The translations under genes were made by a program, and so were the position numbers. Source: Lachnospiraceae bacterium (GTDB lineage Bacteria > Bacillota_A > Clostridia > Lachnospirales > Lachnospiraceae). Taken from it: a stretch of DNA of 25,794 bases. Every line of letters starts with the position of its first letter. Within the stretch, counting starts at the first letter, position 1. Location: positions 1 through 25,794 of the forward strand of contig JAILCT010000050.1 in NCBI GenBank assembly GCA_024690425.1. The letters run 5' to 3'. The notes under the pieces were generated by a model, which was not told the DNA's origin, made no database searches, and was given only the letters and a program-made list of their open reading frames with translations. Shown here one piece after another: positions 16,801-25,794 of this stretch.

Positions 16801-17190
16801 TCATGCATTACCGCCCGCAGCATCAAAATGCGTATCATAAAAGGTACTTATACATTCGTATGTTTCATCGCTTATCACATGTTCGATCACACATGCTTCC
16901 CTTGCTGCTCTTTTTTCATTAACGCCCATGCCGATAAGCATTTTTTTGATCAGGATATGCTTGCTGTATACCTTTTCCGCAACGGCTTTACCTGCATCGG
17001 TGAAGAATATGTGCCCCTTATCGCTTGAGTAGATCATACCCTTCTCTCTAAGCCTTTTCATTGCATTGCTTACACTGGGTTTTGTAACTCCGAGTTCCTT
17101 CGCGATATCCACCGATCTGGCAAATCCCTTACTCTTGTGCAGGATAAGTATGCTCTCAAGATAATCCTCTGCCGAGTTGTTCTTTTCCAT
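16801..17190 (-). CDS. DtxR-family iron-dependent repressor (feo cluster)
   Basis: This 129-aa metalloregulator has an N-terminal winged helix (SAEDYLESILIL ... SVDIAKELGVTKPSVSNAMKRL) and a dimerisation and metal domain with the ligand motif CVIEH (C-x-x-E-H). The Cys in this motif is typical of iron-sensing DtxR/IdeR proteins rather than MntR. The SH3-like third domain of DtxR is missing, so it has MntR-like length. It lies between the FeoB-associated peptide gene and the ZIP gene and probably represses the feo promoter at 19680-19708. I favour the ATG at 17190 (MEKNNSAEDYLE); an ATG at 17202 adds four residues, and upstream codons overlap the preceding gene. Confidence 0.9.
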   Translation of the reverse strand: MEKNNSAEDYLESILILHKSKGFARSVDIAKELGVTKPSVSNAMKRLREKGMIYSSDKGHIFFTDAGKAVAEKVYSKHILIKKMLIGMGVNEKRAAREACVIEHVISDETYECISTFYDTHFDAAGGNA

Positions 17191-17206
17191 TCTGCCCTTC
17201 ATTATA

Positions 17207-17356
17207 TCAAGCTTTTCTTTTAGGGCAGGTCGCAGCGGACGGACATCCGATGCAGCGCCTGCCCTTCTTTTTCTCCCTATGGATATAGACACAGGCGCCG
17301 ATGACCAATACCATTAATACCACAATTATCACTATATTTGCAATCAATGCACCCAT
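17207..17356 (-). CDS. FeoB-associated Cys-rich membrane protein
   Basis: This 49-aa protein has one membrane helix (NIVIIVVLMVLVIGACVYIH), a basic stretch (REKKKGRR) and a Cys-rich tail (CIGCPSAATCPKRK). This is the known architecture of small proteins encoded beside feoB in Firmicutes, assumed to assist ferrous iron transport. It starts 13 bases after the feoB stop with GGAAGGAG five bases before the ATG. The upstream in-frame extension has no such site. Confidence 0.9.
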   Translation of the reverse strand: MGALIANIVIIVVLMVLVIGACVYIHREKKKGRRCIGCPSAATCPKRKA

Positions 17357-17369
17357 GTCTGCTCCTTCC

Positions 17370-19361
17370 TTAACTAAGCTTATATTCCAAAGCCATCTTC
17401 TTCCGGTTGCTCCTGATGCATGCATATATTATAGATGCAAATACCAAAACCGCAACCAGGCCGCCCACGAAACCTGTACCGAATGAACCTGTTGTTATCA
17501 GTGTACCGATCTGATATACAAGGAATCCAACCGTAAAGCCGGTTGCGAGCTGCAGCCCTATTGCTCCCCACAGCCACTTGGCCGACTTCATCTCCGAGTT
17601 CATTGCACCCAGGGCTGCAAAGCAGGGTGGTGTATACAGATTAAACATAAGATATGCAAGTGCCGCAACCTTGGTGATGCCCATTGCTGCAGCTACCGCA
17701 TTGCCTTCACCGATAAGTTCAAGCTCTTCTGTATCAATAAAGTTGGTTATGGCATATACCGTTGCGATCGTTCCGACAACATTCTCCTTGGCAATAAATC
17801 CGGTAACCGCTGCAGCAGCAAGCTGCCATGAAGCAATACCCACTATCGGGACGAGCAGGTATGAGAACGGGCCTGCTATCCCGGCAAGGATAGATGTATG
17901 TTCCGCACCTTCTTCAACAACCTGGAACCTCCAGTTAAATGACTGCATGATCTGTACCACTGTATTACATACAAGGATGATGGTGCCGGCCTTAACGATG
18001 TAAGCCTTTCCTCTCTCAAGCATGCTCTTGAAGGCAAATCCGAGACTGGGCACCTTGTATTCCGGCATTTCTATGATAAAAAAGCTCTTCCTGTATTTCA
18101 TTCCTGTTATTGCCTTGATAAGAAGTGCTCCCAACAGAACGAGCACAATACCAAGCATGTAGCATACGAAACTTACCCATCTTGATTCAGGGAAAAATGC
18201 TCCTGCGAAAAGAGCGATGACCGGAAGCTTGGCTCCGCATGGCATGAATGTTGCAAGCATTGCAGTAGACCTTCTCTCCCTTTCATTCCTTATGGTCCTG
18301 CAGGCCATGATAGCGGGAATACCGCATCCGGTACCTATTATCATAGGGATCACTGACTTACCCGAAAGACCCACCTTCTTGAATATGGGATCGAGAACGA
18401 CCGTTGCCCTCGACATGTAGCCGCAGTCCTCAAGAAGGGCGATCAGGAAATACATGACCATAACAAGCGGCAGGAACCCTACAACAGCACCCACACCACC
18501 TATTATACCATCGATCAGGAGTGCGTAAAGCAAAGGATTGGCATCACCGAGCTGTTCACCTGCCCACTCCTGGAAGGTCTCTATCCATCCTACAAGTATA
18601 TCAGCAAGATAAGTTCCAAGTGTCGTCTGGCTGATATAGAATACCAAGAACATGATACCGGCAAAGATTATAAGTCCGGCTACCGGATTGGTAACAACCT
18701 TATCGATGGTGTCACCAACGGTTTTATCCTTGGTGAAGGTCTTCCTTACTTCGGTTTCCTTAACAATACCGTTTACAAAGTCAAACCTCTTACGGTCGGC
18801 AGCTTCCACTGCTTCCTTGCTGGTGACATCGATATTGCCCTGATGATAGGGTGCCTTCTGCCCCTTCCCTTCAAGAGCGGCAGCGGCTTCCACTGCTTCC
18901 TTTATACCCTTGTCGTTCGTAGATACTGTATTTACCACAGGGCATCCAAGCTTCTCGGACAATTTCTGCGCATCTATCTTATTCCCCTTTTTATCGTTCA
19001 CATCGCTTTTATTCAATGCAACAACAACGGGGATGCCCAATTCAAGAAGCTGTGTCGTGAAGAAAAGGCTCCGGCTTAAGTTGGTGGCATCCACTATATT
19101 GATAATGGCATCGGGATGCTCATTCTTGACATAGCCGCTTGTTATGCTCTCTTCGGAAGTGAAGGGCGACATCGAATATGCTCCCGGAAGATCGACAGCG
19201 ATTATCTCCTTGCCGCTTCCGTTATATTTGCCCTTTATCGGACTCTCCTTCCTGTCAACCGTAACTCCGGCCCAGTTACCGATCTTCTCATTTCTTCCCG
19301 TCAGGGCATTATACATGGTCGTTTTGCCGCTGTTGGGATTTCCCGTTAGTGCGATTCTCAT
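17370..19361 (-). CDS. feoB: Ferrous iron transporter FeoB
   Basis: FeoB is the GTPase-coupled membrane transporter for Fe2+. The 663-aa protein has an N-terminal G domain with G1 GNPNSGKTT (residues 7-15), the G2 region GNWAGVTVDRK, G3 DLPGAYSM and G4 NKSD. Next come a cytoplasmic spacer and the transport domain with about ten helices, including the two Gate regions (PCGAKLPVIALFAGAFF and YTPPCFAALGAMNSE). The shorter length compared with about 770 residues in E. coli is usual in this phylum. AGGAGG precedes the ATG. It is the second gene of the iron operon, 29 bases after feoA. Confidence 0.97.
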   Translation of the reverse strand: MRIALTGNPNSGKTTMYNALTGRNEKIGNWAGVTVDRKESPIKGKYNGSGKEIIAVDLPGAYSMSPFTSEESITSGYVKNEHPDAIINIVDATNLSRSLFFTTQLLELGIPVVVALNKSDVNDKKGNKIDAQKLSEKLGCPVVNTVSTNDKGIKEAVEAAAALEGKGQKAPYHQGNIDVTSKEAVEAADRKRFDFVNGIVKETEVRKTFTKDKTVGDTIDKVVTNPVAGLIIFAGIMFLVFYISQTTLGTYLADILVGWIETFQEWAGEQLGDANPLLYALLIDGIIGGVGAVVGFLPLVMVMYFLIALLEDCGYMSRATVVLDPIFKKVGLSGKSVIPMIIGTGCGIPAIMACRTIRNERERRSTAMLATFMPCGAKLPVIALFAGAFFPESRWVSFVCYMLGIVLVLLGALLIKAITGMKYRKSFFIIEMPEYKVPSLGFAFKSMLERGKAYIVKAGTIILVCNTVVQIMQSFNWRFQVVEEGAEHTSILAGIAGPFSYLLVPIVGIASWQLAAAAVTGFIAKENVVGTIATVYAITNFIDTEELELIGEGNAVAAAMGITKVAALAYLMFNLYTPPCFAALGAMNSEMKSAKWLWGAIGLQLATGFTVGFLVYQIGTLITTGSFGTGFVGGLVAVLVFASIIYACIRSNRKKMALEYKLS

Positions 19362-19390
19362 TTTTTTCCTCCTAGATTTTTATTTTAAAA

Positions 19391-19603
19391 TTAAATGTTG
19401 ATAGCGGTTGCTAACTCAGGATCGATATTATATCTTGCGTCCTTTATCGACACAACAAGATTCTTTTTCCTGTCCACAACGGTAATATATTCACCGCTGT
19501 AGCATCCCAATGAAAATAGAAAACTCTCCATTTCATCGTCACCTCCGGTGTCAACTCCGGTAATAAGATATTCCTTTCCGATCTCTGCCTCATTCAGGTT
19601 CAT
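19391..19603 (-). CDS. feoA: FeoA domain protein
   Basis: This 70-aa SH3-like FeoA protein is presumed to bind FeoB and regulate or assist Fe2+ uptake. Typical features are the N-terminal NLNEAEIGKEYLITGV, the central LGCYSGEYITVVDRKKNLVVSIKDARYNID and a short C-terminus. GGAGG lies 12 bases before the ATG at 19603, slightly long. The TTG four codons earlier is too close to that site to be used. It is the first gene of the iron operon, with a leader of about 70 bases. Confidence 0.93.
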   Translation of the reverse strand: MNLNEAEIGKEYLITGVDTGGDDEMESFLFSLGCYSGEYITVVDRKKNLVVSIKDARYNIDPELATAINI

Positions 19604-19655
19604 TATAATTTTCAACCTCCAACATTTTATAGGATAAAAGAAAAGACTTACATTT

Positions 19656-19671
19656 GTTAGCTTTCGCTAAC
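19656..19671. promoter_or_regulatory. Feo operator 1 (DtxR-type site)
   Basis: GTTAGC-TTTC-GCTAAC is a perfect inverted repeat placed just downstream of the predicted feo transcription start (about +2 to +17). TTAG/CTAA half-sites are characteristic of DtxR/IdeR-type boxes. Confidence 0.8.
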
Positions 19672-19679
19672 CTATTGCT

Positions 19680-19708
19680 ATTATAGTTAGCTTGGTCTAA
19701 CTTGTCAA
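19680..19708 (-). promoter_or_regulatory. feo operon promoter
   Basis: On the minus strand: TTGACA (19708-19703), 17 bp, then TATAAT (19685-19680), both perfect consensus. The spacer is almost exactly filled by operator 2, and operator 1 follows the start site, so the promoter should be strong when iron is low and tightly shut when the repressor is loaded. Confidence 0.92.
19686..19701. promoter_or_regulatory. Feo operator 2 (DtxR-type site in the spacer)
   Basis: GTTAGC-TTGG-TCTAAC is the same motif as operator 1 with one mismatch between arms, located exactly 30 bp away and filling the -35/-10 spacer of the feo promoter. Confidence 0.78.
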
Positions 19709-19724
19709 TAGCGTTTTAGTTTGA

Positions 19725-19753
19725 TTGAATGATATTGTTTTTCATGATAAACT
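19725..19753 (+). promoter_or_regulatory. Promoter of the divergent DtxR-type gene
   Basis: TTGAAT (19725-19730), 17 bp, then TAAACT (19748-19753) with a TGA extension. It lies outside both GTTAGC operators, so this repressor gene may not share feo control. Confidence 0.5.
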
Positions 19754-19788
19754 AAACCTTAAATAACGATATTTTGGGGGATATATAT

Positions 19789-20169
19789 ATGGCACTGCAG
19801 GAATCGGGAGAAATGTATCTTGAAACAATATATGTACTTTCGCAGGAATCATCACAGGTGCGTGCGATAGATATCGGGGAATATATGGGTTTTTCCAAGC
19901 CTTCGGTAAGCCGCGCCCTCGGACTTCTCAAGGATGAAGGCCTCATCAGAAAGGATGATAACGGTTTCATAAGGTTAACTGAAGCCGGGAACATACTGGC
20001 GAAGCGCATATACGAGCGCCACACAGTACTATCCCGGCTCTTAATGGACATCGGTGTTGACGAAAAGACCGCAACAGATGATGCCTGCCGCATTGAGCAT
20101 TATATAAGCGACACGACCTTCGATGCGATCAAGGCTCATATTGCCAGGCACGCCAACGATAAGAGATAG
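19789..20169 (+). CDS. Second DtxR-family metalloregulator
   Basis: This 126-aa winged-helix metal-dependent repressor is similar in plan to the one inside the feo cluster: QESGEMYLETIYVLSQ, a recognition helix in MGFSKPSVSRALGLL, and the metal motif CRIEH with the iron-type Cys. It also lacks an SH3-like domain. It is divergent from feoA, so it is an equally good candidate for the repressor acting on the feo operators. I chose the ATG at 19789 because GGGGG lies eight bases upstream; an in-frame start at 19774 lies ahead of the ribosome binding site. Its stop is separated by two bases from that of the convergent rubrerythrin gene. Confidence 0.9.
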   Translation: MALQESGEMYLETIYVLSQESSQVRAIDIGEYMGFSKPSVSRALGLLKDEGLIRKDDNGFIRLTEAGNILAKRIYERHTVLSRLLMDIGVDEKTATDDACRIEHYISDTTFDAIKAHIARHANDKR

Positions 20170-20925: not shown

Positions 20926-22404
20926 ATGTTGAAGGACTGGACTAAAGCTGAAAAACCCGAAGATTCCGAAATCGATTCAAGGCTTGAAAAAGCAAGATCT
21001 GAATTAAATGCCAGACAGATGGCCATAAAGGAAAGCAAGCTGCCCGTTCTTGTGATCTTTGATGGGTGGGGAGGTGCCGGTAAGGGCGGAGTGCTTGGTA
21101 AGGTCATTAAAAACCTTGATCCCAGATTCTATAAGACCGAAACCCTGTCCAAACCGTCCGAGGATGAATTGAGGCGCCCTTTCCTGTACAGGTATTTCGT
21201 GCGTATACCCGAGGCAGGAAGATTTTCCTTCTTTGACGGAAGCTGGATGGATGAGATCACAAAGGACAGGCTTCAGGGCAAGACCAATGACGATGAATAC
21301 AAGCGAAGGCTCACATCTATAAAGCGCTTTGAAAGACAGCTTTCCGATAATGGCTATCTTGTGGTCAAGTTCTTTTTCAATATTTCAAAGAAGGAGCAGA
21401 GAAAGAGGCTTGATGCCCTTACAGATGACAAGAACACTGCATGGCGTGTAAGCAAATGGGATGAATGGCAGAATAAACATTACGATAAATGCGTTGATGT
21501 GTACGATGAATACCTCGAGCTCACCAATCAGTTTATAGCCCCATGGTATTTTATAGATTCCAAAAACCGCAAATGGGCTGAGCTTCAGGTTACGGAGATC
21601 CTTGTAAAGAGCATTGATATTGCCCTTAAGAATACCGGCAGGGCTGCCGCCATACTGCAGAATACCTTCCCTCTTGTGCAGATGCCCCGCTTAAGTGAGA
21701 TAGATCTTGATAAGAAGATAAGCGACGAGGAATATTCGAAGGAACTGAAGGAACTGCAGGCAACCCTTGCGGACCTTCACAACCTTATCTACCATAAGAA
21801 GGTACCTGTAGTAATCGCATATGAAGGCTGGGATGCCGCAGGAAAGGGCGGAAACATCAAGAGACTGACATCGGCTCTTGACCCGAGGGGCTTCGAGGTG
21901 CATCCGATAGCCTCCCCGGAACCTGCCGAAAAGAACAGGCACTATCTGTGGCGTTTCTGGAACAGGCTCCCCAAGGATGGGCATATAGCCATTTTCGATC
22001 GTACGTGGTACGGCCGTGTAATGGTCGAAAGGCTGGAGGGCTTCTGCTCTGAGAACGACTGGCAGAGGGCTTATAACGAGATCAATGAATTTGAAAAAGA
22101 GCTGTATGACTGGGGTGCGGTCATTATAAAGTTCTGGGTGCAGATAGACAAGGATACCCAGCTTGCTCGATTTACCGACAGGCAGAACACGCCCGAAAAA
22201 CAGTGGAAGATCACTGATGAAGACTGGAGGAACCGCGAAAAGTGGGACCTCTATGAAGATGCCGTTAACGAAATGATCCAGAAGACAAGTACGGAATTTG
22301 CTCCCTGGCATATACTTGAGTCAAACGATAAGCATTACGCCCGCATCAAGGCTCTTAAAACAGTCATAGATGCGATCAACAGAGCTTGCGGCCTATCCTC
22401 GTGA
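20926..22404 (+). CDS. Two-domain PPK2 (polyphosphate:AMP phosphotransferase type)
   Basis: This 492-aa protein has two tandem PPK2 domains, the layout of class II PPK2 / polyphosphate:AMP phosphotransferases, which use polyphosphate to phosphorylate AMP. Domain 1 has Walker A DGWGGAGKGG (46-55) but a weak Walker B, FFDGSWMDE. Domain 2 has Walker A EGWDAAGKGG (300-309) and the full Walker B plus lid start, IFDRTWYGRVMVERLEGF. In characterised two-domain members the C-terminal domain carries the activity, which fits the degeneration seen in domain 1. AAGGAGG lies seven bases before the ATG. The last 29 bases overlap the convergent bioB gene. Confidence 0.92.
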   Translation: MLKDWTKAEKPEDSEIDSRLEKARSELNARQMAIKESKLPVLVIFDGWGGAGKGGVLGKVIKNLDPRFYKTETLSKPSEDELRRPFLYRYFVRIPEAGRFSFFDGSWMDEITKDRLQGKTNDDEYKRRLTSIKRFERQLSDNGYLVVKFFFNISKKEQRKRLDALTDDKNTAWRVSKWDEWQNKHYDKCVDVYDEYLELTNQFIAPWYFIDSKNRKWAELQVTEILVKSIDIALKNTGRAAAILQNTFPLVQMPRLSEIDLDKKISDEEYSKELKELQATLADLHNLIYHKKVPVVIAYEGWDAAGKGGNIKRLTSALDPRGFEVHPIASPEPAEKNRHYLWRFWNRLPKDGHIAIFDRTWYGRVMVERLEGFCSENDWQRAYNEINEFEKELYDWGAVIIKFWVQIDKDTQLARFTDRQNTPEKQWKITDEDWRNREKWDLYEDAVNEMIQKTSTEFAPWHILESNDKHYARIKALKTVIDAINRACGLSS

Positions 22405-23338
22405 GCATCTCTCTGTCACTCTTTATAGTTGACCCTGAAGTGGTAAGCATATCTCCCGTGATCGTAGCACTGGCACCGCTTGAAAAGGCTGCTTCTCCGT
22501 TACCCCGGATAAGCTTCCTGCCTGCTCCGAGACGGATATCCGCTTCAGGGTTTATATATTTAAAAAGAGCTATCGTCCTTAATATCTCATCATTGTCAAG
22601 AGAAGGCAGATGCTCAAGCGGAGTGCCGGAAATCGGGATCAGGGTATTGACTGGAATGGATCTTATATTAAGTTCTGCCAGAGCGAAGGCCATATCGATC
22701 CTGTCGTCCATGGTCTCGCCCATTCCGATGATCCCTCCGGAACAAACATTAAGCCCCGCCTTCTGTGCCCGTCTTATATTCGCCGCTTTGTCTTCAAAAG
22801 TATGGCTGGTGCATATTTCCTTAAAATACCCGGGAGATGTCTCTATATTGTTATGATAGCTTCTCACACCCGCATCATATAAGCGTTTGAACTGTTCCTG
22901 TGTAAGAAAACCCAGAGATGCACACAGGTCTATCTTAAGCTCTTTACGAAGCCTCTTATATATTGCGATTATCTTTTCAAAATCATCTTCTGAGGGTCCG
23001 CGCCCTGATATAACGATCGCAAATCTATTAACCCCCGCCCTCTCATTAGACGAAGCCAGGGCATATATCTCATCATAGTCAAGAAGTCCGTATACCTCAC
23101 AGCCTGTATGGTTGTGTGCCGACTGGGCACAGAATCTGCAGTTCTCACTGCAGGCCCCGTTCCGTCCCGATATGATGGTACACAGGTCTACACGGTCTCC
23201 CGTAAAATGAGCCCTCAGCTTATCAGCTCCATCTCTCAGTTCCTGAAGCGGAGCCCCCTTTAATATACCCAGGACATCATCCTTCGATAGCCTGTAACCG
23301 TCTATTATCTTATCGGTAAGATCTAAGATATCTATCAT
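22376..23338 (-). CDS. bioB: Biotin synthase, anaerobe-type
   Basis: BioB is the radical-SAM enzyme that inserts sulfur into dethiobiotin to make biotin. The 320-aa protein has the radical cluster motif C63-ENC67-RF-C70 followed by AQS. Of the E. coli auxiliary-cluster ligands, Cys128 (here C139, DLCASLG), Cys188 (C199, NVCSGG) and Arg260 (R269, IRLGAGR) are kept. The Cys97 position is Ala107 (NRFAIVISG). An extra Cys53 (DLCTIISGRNGAC) lies ten residues before the radical motif. This variant ligand set fits the different auxiliary cluster reported for biotin synthases of obligate anaerobes. The start overlaps the symporter stop as ATGA, with GGGAGG seven bases upstream. No bioA, bioD or bioF gene is in view. 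Confidence 0.95.
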   Translation of the reverse strand: MIDILDLTDKIIDGYRLSKDDVLGILKGAPLQELRDGADKLRAHFTGDRVDLCTIISGRNGACSENCRFCAQSAHNHTGCEVYGLLDYDEIYALASSNERAGVNRFAIVISGRGPSEDDFEKIIAIYKRLRKELKIDLCASLGFLTQEQFKRLYDAGVRSYHNNIETSPGYFKEICTSHTFEDKAANIRRAQKAGLNVCSGGIIGMGETMDDRIDMAFALAELNIRSIPVNTLIPISGTPLEHLPSLDNDEILRTIALFKYINPEADIRLGAGRKLIRGNGEAAFSSGASATITGDMLTTSGSTIKSDREMLTRIGRKLC

Positions 23339-24711
23339 TGCTTTGCCTCCCTGTGCCTGACCGATATAAGGGACAATAATAAGGATAACCCCATTCCGAT
23401 AAGCGTAAGATAATTCATGATCACTTCCGGCACACCTGCATCGGTAAGCGTCTGACTAAAATATGTTCCGAGGATACCAAAGAGACCTCCTGATACAACA
23501 GCAGCAACCCAGACAGCGGGATTGATCCCCCGGTTTTTATATGCAAATATCGCGACCATAAGAGGGAATATCACACCCGGCGTATAAACGCTGTACGCCC
23601 CGGTCAGAAGGCTCATTATATCCCCCTGTCCGAAAGCTGCAAGCATGAGTGATATAAGCCCAAGAACGATAACGGTCATCCTGACACCCATAACACTTTC
23701 TTTCTTTAAGATATCCTTAACGAAGATCGTGGAAGCATTTATTATACATGTGTCTGTTGATGAAAGGATTGCGGACAGCAATCCGAAGATCAGCAGGATC
23801 GCCAGCCACCCCGGCATTATTGAAACAGCATACATGAGTGCCCCCATATCCCCCATTTCTTCGGGTGTGACATTATATCTTATCCACATACCGATCAATG
23901 TGATGACTACAGAGAACACGAGTAATACCACACCTGCTGTCCCTGCAGCCCTTTGGGCCGCTCTTCCGTCCTTTGCAATGAAATTTCTTGACATGATATC
24001 CGGTCCCAGAAAATATACTCCGCCGATCACGAAAAACTGTGTAAAGAGATTTGATATCCTGTAATCATCGTTCAGAAGTTCAATATTATCAACAATAAGT
24101 GTGTTGTTGCTTCCTCCCGAAATATACAGATACGCCATACAGGCAGTCACACCGGCCAGTATGATAATAAGCTGTACCTTGTCCGTTTTAACAACAGACA
24201 GCTGTCCGCCAATGGCCGTATATGCGATCACGATGATCGAAGTAATAATGAATACTGGCGGGGTGCTCTTACCGAGAGCAAATGTAATGAGTGAGTTCAT
24301 GGCCACCAGCTGGCCTGCAATAACACCTATCCAGGAGATGACTATGATCAGGGAGATTATGACTTCTGCCGGACGTCCGACGATCTTACCGGCCAGATCG
24401 GGCAGGGTATCGGCACCTATATCCCTGACTTTCCCCGAAAGCAAAACAGACTGCAGCATAAGTCCGATGGCTCCAAAAGCAAGCCACCAGATTCCCGGAA
24501 ATCCGATATTGTAAACCGTTGTTGTAATACCGATAGTTGTCGACGCCCCGACCACAGTGGCAAGCAGCGTCATAACAACCGAACATGAGGCCTGATTCTT
24601 CCCCGCAACGGAATAATCAGTGAATGACCTGATATTCTTCAGGTCCAGGATACCGATCGCGATGAATACGATCAGATATAAGAATAATGCTATCGCAAAA
24701 ATATAATTCAT
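23335..24711 (-). CDS. Sodium:solute symporter in a BirA-controlled operon with bioB
   Basis: This 458-aa membrane protein of the sodium:solute symporter (SSS) family has about 12-13 hydrophobic helices. Family features include DYSVAGKNQ near the N-terminus, TLLATVVGASTTIG, and the conserved helix region LLSAILSSTDTCIINASTIFVKD. The SSS family includes the pantothenate carrier PanF, but biotin is not a usual substrate. Here the gene is first in an operon with bioB (4-bp ATGA overlap), and its promoter carries a BirA operator, so the cargo is probably biotin, dethiobiotin or another precursor. I chose the ATG at 24711 (MNYIFAIALF), with AAGGAG about ten bases upstream; a TTG nine codons earlier lies before that site. 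Confidence 0.9.
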   Translation of the reverse strand: MNYIFAIALFLYLIVFIAIGILDLKNIRSFTDYSVAGKNQASCSVVMTLLATVVGASTTIGITTTVYNIGFPGIWWLAFGAIGLMLQSVLLSGKVRDIGADTLPDLAGKIVGRPAEVIISLIIVISWIGVIAGQLVAMNSLITFALGKSTPPVFIITSIIVIAYTAIGGQLSVVKTDKVQLIIILAGVTACMAYLYISGGSNNTLIVDNIELLNDDYRISNLFTQFFVIGGVYFLGPDIMSRNFIAKDGRAAQRAAGTAGVVLLVFSVVITLIGMWIRYNVTPEEMGDMGALMYAVSIMPGWLAILLIFGLLSAILSSTDTCIINASTIFVKDILKKESVMGVRMTVIVLGLISLMLAAFGQGDIMSLLTGAYSVYTPGVIFPLMVAIFAYKNRGINPAVWVAAVVSGGLFGILGTYFSQTLTDAGVPEVIMNYLTLIGMGLSLLLSLISVRHREAKQ

Positions 24712-24743
24712 TTTCCAATCTCTCCTTATTTTGGCCAAACACA

Positions 24744-24773
24744 GTTATACTATAAGGAGAGGCGTATTGTCAA
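24744..24773 (-). promoter_or_regulatory. Promoter of the symporter-bioB operon
   Basis: On the minus strand: TTGACA (24773-24768), 18 bp, then TATAAC (24749-24744). The -35 lies inside one arm of the BirA operator. Transcription would start near 24737. Confidence 0.75.
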
Positions 24774-24799
24774 CCCATATATGCTTGTGGGTTGACAAT
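24766..24799. promoter_or_regulatory. BirA (biotin repressor) operator
   Basis: ATTGTCAACC (24766-24775) and GGTTGACAAT (24790-24799) are perfect 10-bp inverted repeats separated by 14 bp. This matches the known bacterial BirA site pattern, TTGTTAACC-spacer-GGTTAACAA, with one symmetric base change. It overlaps the -35 of the operon, so biotin-loaded BirA should block transcription. Confidence 0.88.
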
Positions 24800-24813: not shown

Positions 24814-25794
24814 TTAATGAAGCTTATCATGGCTGTCCGTTCTGGTCTTGGCCCCCATGGCTTTTAATTCTTTCTTTCGCTTGTACATCATTTTATCTGC
24901 TCTTTCAAATATATCCTTAAGCTGTCTGTCTCCCTTTTTAAGAACAGCATATCCTATTGAGATCACTACGGAATCATCCTTGATGTTCTCTTCAACCTTA
25001 CGGTTCACTTCATTGACAACTTCAAGCATCGACTCATAGCCCTTTCCCTGAAGGATCACAACGAATTCATCACCGCCGATCCTGAACACCGCTCCCTGAT
25101 CTGTCTGTTGATGATCTTTTCGTTTTCTGTATAAGCATGCTTATTGCGTACACCGGTCAGGGAATCCGTATTAGCCATATCCATATAGGTCCTGCTGGTC
25201 TCCTTCTCTTCTTCAAGCTTCTAACTGGAAAATCTTTTTAGCTGGAGCAGGAGAACAGATGCCAGGGTTAACACGGCTGCCATGGTAAAAATGACCTGAT
25301 TTCTGCTGTTTCTGATGGTTCTGTCACTGATATAACTGATCTTATCACGGATAACGCTGTCGCGGATAAGGACTGCCATCTCCCAGCCCGTATCCTGTAT
25401 GGGAACATAGTACAGCGTCTCCTCGGATATGCCGACATCGAACGTTATGTTTCCTCCCTGCCCGTTTTCAAAATTCTTAAGGTTTTTCTCCCAGACATCC
25501 TCAGCAACAATACTCTTTAACGCATCTAAGAAATTATGCTTTAAGATCACCGGTCCCAGTTCGGTATCGGACAGGTTTACACCGCTTTTTGTATACAGGG
25601 CGAAGTGGGTTCTTCCCTGATCATCGAATGCAAGCAGATCAACAATATCCTGGATATCAAGCTGGACAAAGCATGCTTTAAAAGGCTTACCCATCAGCTT
25701 AAGATCCGGTGTCGGAATAGCCAGACATAACTGCTTGGAAGAACCGTAGTTTGAAACTGTGGAGATTATCCGGGCATTCACCTGTACATCCCCT
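24814..25794 (-). pseudogene. Decayed sensor diguanylate cyclase (runs off the right edge)
   Basis: An extracytoplasmic sensor region (from the edge; NARIISTVSNYGSSKQL onward), a membrane helix (QVIFTMAAVLTLASVLLLQL) and a GGDEF domain are recognisable, but the gene is broken twice. A TAG at 25223-25221 follows LKRFSS, after which the same frame continues with a normal linker and GGDEF start (TDSLTGVRNKHAYTENEK). Then, near 25110-25088, about 60 residues that should carry the metal-binding Asp region are missing, and the reading frame shifts to reach VFRIGGDEFVVIL and the C-terminus. The GTG at 25089 could start a 91-codon fragment, but it would not fold as an active cyclase. The 5' end lies outside the window. 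Confidence 0.88.

Follow-up and report, generated by a model that had tools for sequence, protein, structure and literature searches.

The window analyzed here is a stretch of 25,794 nucleotides from a Lachnospiraceae bacterium (contig JAILCT010000050.1), and the gene in question is a sodium:solute symporter (SSS) gene that is followed by bioB. Its product is very probably a secondary, presumably Na+-coupled biotin importer that also admits dethiobiotin, that took over from BioY in a mostly rumen lineage of Lachnospiraceae, and that was also exchanged with spirochaetes. The sequence and its comparison with relatives show an operator whose regulon comprises the symporter and bioB. They also show that birA-like genes adjoin many of the loci, that BioY is nearly excluded, and that bioD is missing. 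The role in biotin uptake is deduced from regulation, BioY exclusion, and synteny; the direction of transport, the coupling to Na+, the cargo, and the binding of a regulator to its site are likewise predicted.

In the window, the symporter gene (23335–24711, minus strand) is preceded by a perfect dyad, ATTGTCAACC-N14-GGTTGACAAT (24766–24799, no strand). This dyad is a putative BirA-type biotin operator, as it recurs at orthologues, at bioB, and at BioY. The preliminary description had placed it over the -35 element of a symporter–bioB operon, and this was borne out, with the correction that the arms reach 12 bp with a 10-nt spacer (ATTGTCAACCCA / TGGGTTGACAAT). The 32-nt dyad pattern matched the window once, with 0 mismatches, whereas 0.04 matches are expected in shuffled sequence (up to 3 mismatches allowed). 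The -35 element TTGACA (24768–24773, minus) falls within the downstream operator arm, and the -10 element TATAAC (24744–24749, minus) follows 18 nt from it. A probable ribosome-binding site, AAGGAG, was recognized by inspection (24722–24727, minus), 10 nt before the ATG at 24711. From this ATG the symporter comprises 458 aa; the list of open reading frames also holds an alternative upstream TTG start at 24738. The second gene, bioB (22376–23338, minus), encodes biotin synthase, which converts dethiobiotin to biotin, and was identified by TIGR00433 (386 bits against a cut-off of 225) and by its Radical_SAM and BATS domains. The symporter stop and the bioB start overlap in ATGA (23335–23338, minus), which suggests translational coupling. 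This gene order and overlap agree with the preliminary description, although the span given there (23335–24799) takes in the symporter and the operator but excludes bioB.

Relatives were taken from a GTDB scan, of which the best 80 of 95 loci were kept (53–82% identity, 79 genomes). These are mostly metagenome assemblies titled Lachnospiraceae, Eubacterium, or Clostridia, many of them from the rumen, and 7 are titled as spirochaetes. The operator scan combined these 80 loci with the window and with six of the 12 SSS loci of a 299-genome family sample, the remaining six belonging to genomes already included; five loci with <200 nt upstream were dropped, which left 82 regions. The dyad was scored with arms TTGTNAACC and a spacer of 13–16, and 1640 mononucleotide shuffles served as control. 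A score of ≥14 was reached by 74/82 regions compared to 27/1640 shuffles, which rules out a coincidental palindrome, and a score of ≥15 by 70/82 regions compared to 1/1640 shuffles. When the spacer was widened to 12–16, 76/82 regions and 40/1640 shuffles reached 14. BirA-type boxes, for which a search upstream of this symporter subfamily had been proposed, are therefore present in related genomes rather than consistently missing, and the dyad still stood upstream of orthologues at just 53% identity (loci L071, L073, and L080). In all 74 regions scoring ≥14, TTGAC lay inside the downstream arm, and in most of them a -10-like hexamer followed 16–18 nt beyond it, which suggests that a protein bound at the dyad would block the promoter. 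Among the eight regions scoring <14, L069 and L070 have a dyad before a leading bioB, L042 and L166 have a dyad with spacer 12, and the L026 region breaks off with its contig, 5 nt past a BirA-like frame.

The exact core GTCAACC-N13-16-GGTTGAC was searched genome-wide in 49 SSS-bearing genomes and was found at 40 sites in 31 of them. Of these sites, 29 were directly before the SSS gene and 8 before bioB (two of the latter being bioB–SSS operons). The reversed control pattern occurred once in each of 8 of the 49 genomes. Operator-like sites at unrelated genes were confined to the remaining 3/40 sites, all in one minisatellite of one genome (L204, G029:C75, 2929–3240; 53-bp unit, 5.9 copies), downstream of a ribosomal protein gene. 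At BioY, a dyad scoring ≥15 was found in 9/20 loci from the top of the BioY list of relatives, compared to 1/400 shuffles. It was also found in 16/18 further BioY loci, placed before BioY or before a birA–bioY unit; 15 of these 18 were included because BirA was matched close to BioY, the other 3 on account of a short BirA-like frame, and two of the genomes were also in the 20-locus set. The dyad is thus shared with bioB and, in relatives, with BioY. By association it can therefore be taken as the biotin operator in this family, and on this comparison the SSS gene is a member of the biotin regulon. The operators of B. subtilis and L. lactis are similar in that they are BirA-bound and stand before bio and bioY-type genes (PMC4016012, PMC4861984). 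They differ from those described here, where the half-site in the SSS upstream regions is mostly TTGTCAACC or ATGTCAACC and the controlled gene is an SSS symporter.

Next, BioY was counted in SSS genomes; the BioY and bioD counts cover the genomes of relatives, the window's own genome lying outside these searches. The family sample was an even set of 299 genomes of one family, in which the SSS subfamily was called by profile A1 (E ≤ 1e-60, all matches ≥545 bits). BioY was found in 266/299 and the SSS subfamily in 12/299 of these genomes, with BioY in 0/12 of the SSS genomes (Fisher p = 4e-13, uncorrected for kinship). The BioY-less status of eight of the 12 came from the family-sample search and that of four from the search of SSS-bearing genomes. 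The remaining 21 BioY-less genomes of the sample carried neither BioY nor the SSS gene. Among all SSS genomes, BioY was present in just 7/79 (4/49 and 3/30), and 5 of the 7 are spirochaetes by record title, so the symporter does co-occur with the absence of bioY, as had been expected. It is unlikely that the profile overlooked BioY, since the same profile found it in 266/299 relatives. Six records that bear strain names and were regarded as isolates (L029, L040, L055, L061, L072, and L076) were all without BioY and all with bioB, which speaks against assembly gaps as the sole cause of the absence of BioY.

Many SSS genes adjoin a BirA-like gene. The BirA-like cluster comprises 39 proteins in 39/80 SSS loci (e.g., L002:5139–5891), which combine HTH_11 with a partial biotin-ligase domain; HTH_11 was present in all four neighbors scanned with Pfam. 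The BirA-like gene lay within 400 nt of the SSS gene in 33/80 loci, directly upstream and co-directional in 25 and converging in 8. Two SSS copies in one genome (L021 and L025, both G017) each have their own operator and BirA-like neighbor, and in L020 (G016) neighbor and operator are both gone beside the SSS gene. This joint loss favors a pairing of neighbor and operator. The order BirA or BirA-like gene, dyad, and transporter was also seen with BioY in loci L205, L206, and L217–L221 of relatives, where BioY was confirmed by Pfam in 7/7. BioY (an ECF-type S component, PF02632) therefore shares with the symporter the type of operator, a similar birA-adjacent place in relatives, and the same inferred role in biotin uptake. 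In contrast, the two proteins are unrelated, one being of ECF type and the other an SSS secondary symporter, and they rarely co-occur. Because of the near-exclusion of BioY and the shared birA–operator–transporter layout, the SSS gene reads as having displaced BioY at its own place.

The BirA-like neighbors differ from complete ligases. A KWPND-type ligase motif (K[WY]xN[DE]) was found in 0/39 of them; two of these, the shortest with 127 and 199 aa, could be incomplete. Their match to the biotin-ligase profile stops near position 131–160 of 235, and in the alignment they stop at the expected start of the C-terminal domain. The model of a BirA-like neighbor (predicted local distance difference test score, pLDDT, 88.9) resembles the S. 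aureus biotin protein ligase. By its sequence, the neighbor looks like a ligase-dead regulator, which would need to bind biotin or to borrow biotinyl-5'-AMP (bio-5'-AMP) made by another protein. Of 30 full-length ligases from SSS genomes, most were by inspection without the helix-turn-helix (HTH) domain, and those of L085, L092, L103, and L113 were HTH-bearing. BirA is thus probably split into an HTH regulator and a separate, HTH-less full-length ligase in most SSS genomes examined. The short-form BirA profile also matched ordinary BirA (232/299 family genomes); its seven best matches were all SSS genomes, and the other SSS genomes were unremarkable. Short HTH-bearing forms without the KWPND-type motif also precede BioY (L205, L206, and L217–L219), and the split of regulator and ligase may for this reason predate the transporter swap. 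The pair BirA1/BirA2 of L. lactis similarly consists of one HTH-bearing BirA and one HTH-less ligase, but both are ligase-active (PMC4861984), whereas the HTH partner described here has neither the KWPND-type motif nor the C-terminal domain. Among the matches listed from the open-access literature on BirA paralogues, there was no ligase-dead BirA.

The symporter itself scored 79.4 bits with Pfam SSF (PF00474), above the gathering score of 22.8, and SSF was its sole domain; the BioY domain PF02632 was not found in it by Pfam. It remained below the cut-off of the NCBIfam SSS superfamily model TIGR00813 (84.2 bits against 184, E = 9.7e-24). PanF and PutP, which are also bacterial SSS symporters, were its best-scoring named NCBIfam equivalogs, but both scores were far below the cut-offs (panF TIGR02119, 49.5 against 328; PutP TIGR02121, 54.8 against 515.5), which rules out either identity; we know of no biotin operator at either gene. 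Since PF00474 was matched but every listed NCBIfam SSS model stayed far under its cut-off, the symporter is, by these profiles, a divergent SSS subfamily. Its AlphaFold model (pLDDT 75.5) was matched by Foldseek to the choline transporter CHT1 (TM 0.84), SGLT2, vSGLT, and SiaT, which indicates an SSS fold. In transmembrane helix 8, the pattern A-x-x-S-S (A314, S317, and S318) was invariant in the 22-row alignment A1. We take this pattern to resemble the Na2 site of vSGLT; it is consistent with such a site, and coupling to Na+ is therefore a prediction.

The mammalian sodium multivitamin transporter SMVT (SLC5A6) is a member of the same SLC5/SSS superfamily as the window symporter. Its cargo is lipoate, biotin, and pantothenate (PMC3459881), and it is similar to the window symporter in its sodium-driven biotin uptake, which is here deduced from genes. 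It differs in being eukaryotic and multivitamin. No close sequence kinship between the two emerged, and the 9 PDB sequences that the symporter profile matched do not include SMVT. The window symporter could, like SMVT, carry pantothenate or lipoate in addition to biotin, and PanF is indeed among the matching NCBIfam models. We nevertheless consider this unlikely, given how far the panF score lies under its cut-off and that 37/40 exact operator sites stand before the symporter or bioB. A broader vitamin range would be compatible with a biotin importer, but it is not indicated.

Biotin pathway genes were then considered as a guide to the cargo. The biotin-ligase model matched in 49/49 SSS genomes and was over its cut-off in 45/49. 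In contrast, bioD was over cut-off in 0/49, with 8 weak matches inside long frames of 509–791 aa, and bioA in 1/49 (L057). These counts indicate a need for biotin, yet the genomes give no sign of its synthesis from early precursors. A complete biotin pathway elsewhere was ruled out in these 49 genomes on the strength of bioD and bioA, with bioF and bioW outside the search. The preliminary description had anticipated the absence of bioA and bioD, which was found, and had held that a complete pathway plus bioY elsewhere would weaken its case, which is not what the relatives have. Pimelate, 7-keto-8-aminopelargonic acid (KAPA), and 7,8-diaminopelargonic acid (DAPA) are poor cargo candidates, because the tested steps before BioB are missing from these genomes.

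The expected co-occurrence with bioB held in part: bioB was over cut-off in 52/79 SSS genomes (38/49 and 14/30), but it was adjacent to the SSS gene (same strand, within 150 nt) in only 22/80 loci, 6 of the 80 having <1000 nt downstream. No BioB was found in viral contigs. Some of the bioB absences are assembly gaps: clear fragments of bioB remain at contig ends in L018 and L042 and weak ones in L048 and L078, and the absence in L033 is probably a gap as well, since the near-identical L034 has bioB. In 27 genomes bioB did not exceed its cut-off; upstream sequence is available for 23 of their loci, and 21/23 keep the dyad (spacer 12–16, a test passed by 40/1640 shuffles). Furthermore, 8/10 rows of a clade with L053 and L059 (Shimodaira–Hasegawa-like approximate likelihood ratio test, SH-aLRT, 100) are without bioB over cut-off. 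Orthologues without bioB, which the preliminary description would have counted against itself, are thus common; they shift the cargo, and the link to biotin stands. Because bioB-less loci keep the dyad, it is more parsimonious to take biotin itself as the cargo that all share, and dethiobiotin would come second, where bioB is present.

The scheme of dethiobiotin import followed by BioB conversion is accordingly only a part of the story. It draws on the occurrence of bioB without bioD and on the operon with bioB in the window and in the 22 loci, and Rodionov 2019 (PMC6593275) infers dethiobiotin salvage for BioB-only gut genomes. As a complete account, with the symporter supplying dethiobiotin solely for BioB, it appears improbable to us in view of the 27/79 genomes without bioB over cut-off, the persistence of the dyad there, and the biotin-ligase match in every one of the 49 genomes. 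Slightly less probable still is a non-vitamin cargo that is co-regulated with biotin by chance, such as a sulfur source, a precursor of S-adenosylmethionine (SAM) for BioB, or a carboxylase substrate. The SSS family does include carriers of many different solutes, and BioB consumes sulfur and SAM, but the exclusion of BioY and the BioY-like place next to birA-like genes would be unexpected, and the operator persists without bioB. A biotin exporter or sensor is very improbable: some secondary vitamin transporters may excrete vitamins (Rodionov 2019, PMC6593275), but with bioD absent, and bioA and BioY nearly always absent, there is no evident surplus for export, and the operator position predicts repression at plentiful biotin.

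The distribution of the biotin importer candidate extends beyond Lachnospiraceae. In a tree of 87 SSS sequences, the spirochaete rows need ≥3 changes, which is consistent with repeated transfer. The spirochaete loci L018, L027, L054, and L078 carry the dyad with the SSS gene, and L027 and L054 also a BirA-like neighbor.

According to the proposed mechanism, a BirA-type regulator would leave the operator when biotin is scarce. RNA polymerase would then reach the -35 element buried in the operator, and the symporter would be made, together with bioB in the window operon. Biotin, once imported, would be used directly by the biotin ligase, whereas imported dethiobiotin would first be converted by BioB. 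Under ample biotin, the regulator would carry its ligand and close the promoter. A wholly rewired biotin acquisition is only a little more likely than not, and much less certain than the importer itself: in one Lachnospiraceae lineage, the SSS symporter would have replaced BioY in place next to birA, with a change from ECF uptake to Na+-driven symport. Control would rest with a ligase-dead BirA-like repressor (HTH and truncated ligase domain) that reads biotin or bio-5'-AMP made by another protein, a separate HTH-less ligase would perform the chemistry, and the module would have moved between Lachnospiraceae and rumen spirochaetes.

Several observations weigh against the importer proposal. The 12 SSS genomes of the family sample are phylogenetically non-independent, and most genomes are metagenome assemblies without reported completeness. 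BioY is kept in 5/7 spirochaete-labelled SSS genomes and in 2/72 others (L042 and L058), and the search for a known biotin transporter was confined to BioY, leaving aside permeases of the YigM type. Loci L014, L020, and L057 are without the dyad despite enough upstream sequence; in L057 (G039, Spirochaetales), the SSS gene without operator occurs in the genome with bioA over cut-off, and its bioB is without an upstream dyad. The bioB profile retrieved six unlinked bioB loci, and a dyad stands upstream in only four of them; the exceptions are L116, whose dyad sits downstream and was not counted, and L118. No dyad ≥15 was found in 11/20 BioY loci of relatives, nor in L081–L084, the first BioY loci fetched from genomes with both transporters, which are spirochaete-labelled. 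A BirA-like gene was not found in the window by tblastn with the 39 BirA-like proteins, and none adjoins the window symporter. The confidence of the symporter model is moderate. Finally, the importer role and the operator binding are predictions from sequence and comparison.

The upstream neighbor of the window operon is a GGDEF gene (24814–25793, minus), which looks broken: in one frame the GGDEF domain is reduced to its second half, and Pfam gave no match for the preceding frame. Just beyond bioB, on the opposite strand, lies a gene for a two-domain polyphosphate:AMP phosphotransferase of the PPK2 family (20926–22404), and the 3' ends of the two genes overlap by 29 nt. Farther away (16801–20169), a FeoB-type iron transporter (17370–19361) is located between two DtxR-type iron-dependent-repressor genes (16801–17292, minus, and 19774–20169, plus), and a rubrerythrin gene adjoins this cluster. 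The tRNA and Rfam scans of the window gave no matches.

YigM (BioP) of enterobacteria belongs to a different family, of EamA/DMT type. It shares with the window symporter the secondary, non-ECF mode of bacterial biotin uptake (PMC6593275). For gut genomes, that paper names BioY and YigM as the means of biotin uptake, and the word "symporter" does not occur in its text. Among the matches listed from the open-access literature, there was no SSS-type bacterial biotin transporter; subscription papers or RegPrecise may contain a prediction. Vitamin phenotyping from genomes would label these rumen bacteria as biotin-requiring without a transporter, a gap that a regulated SSS importer would fill. Such an importer would change the energetics of biotin uptake and would explain the use of dethiobiotin by BioB-only genomes. 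The split BirA allows testing whether a ligase-dead BirA still senses biotin, and the symporter offers a bacterial relative for studying sodium-driven biotin transport as in SMVT. Overall, the findings point to a candidate route of bacterial biotin import.

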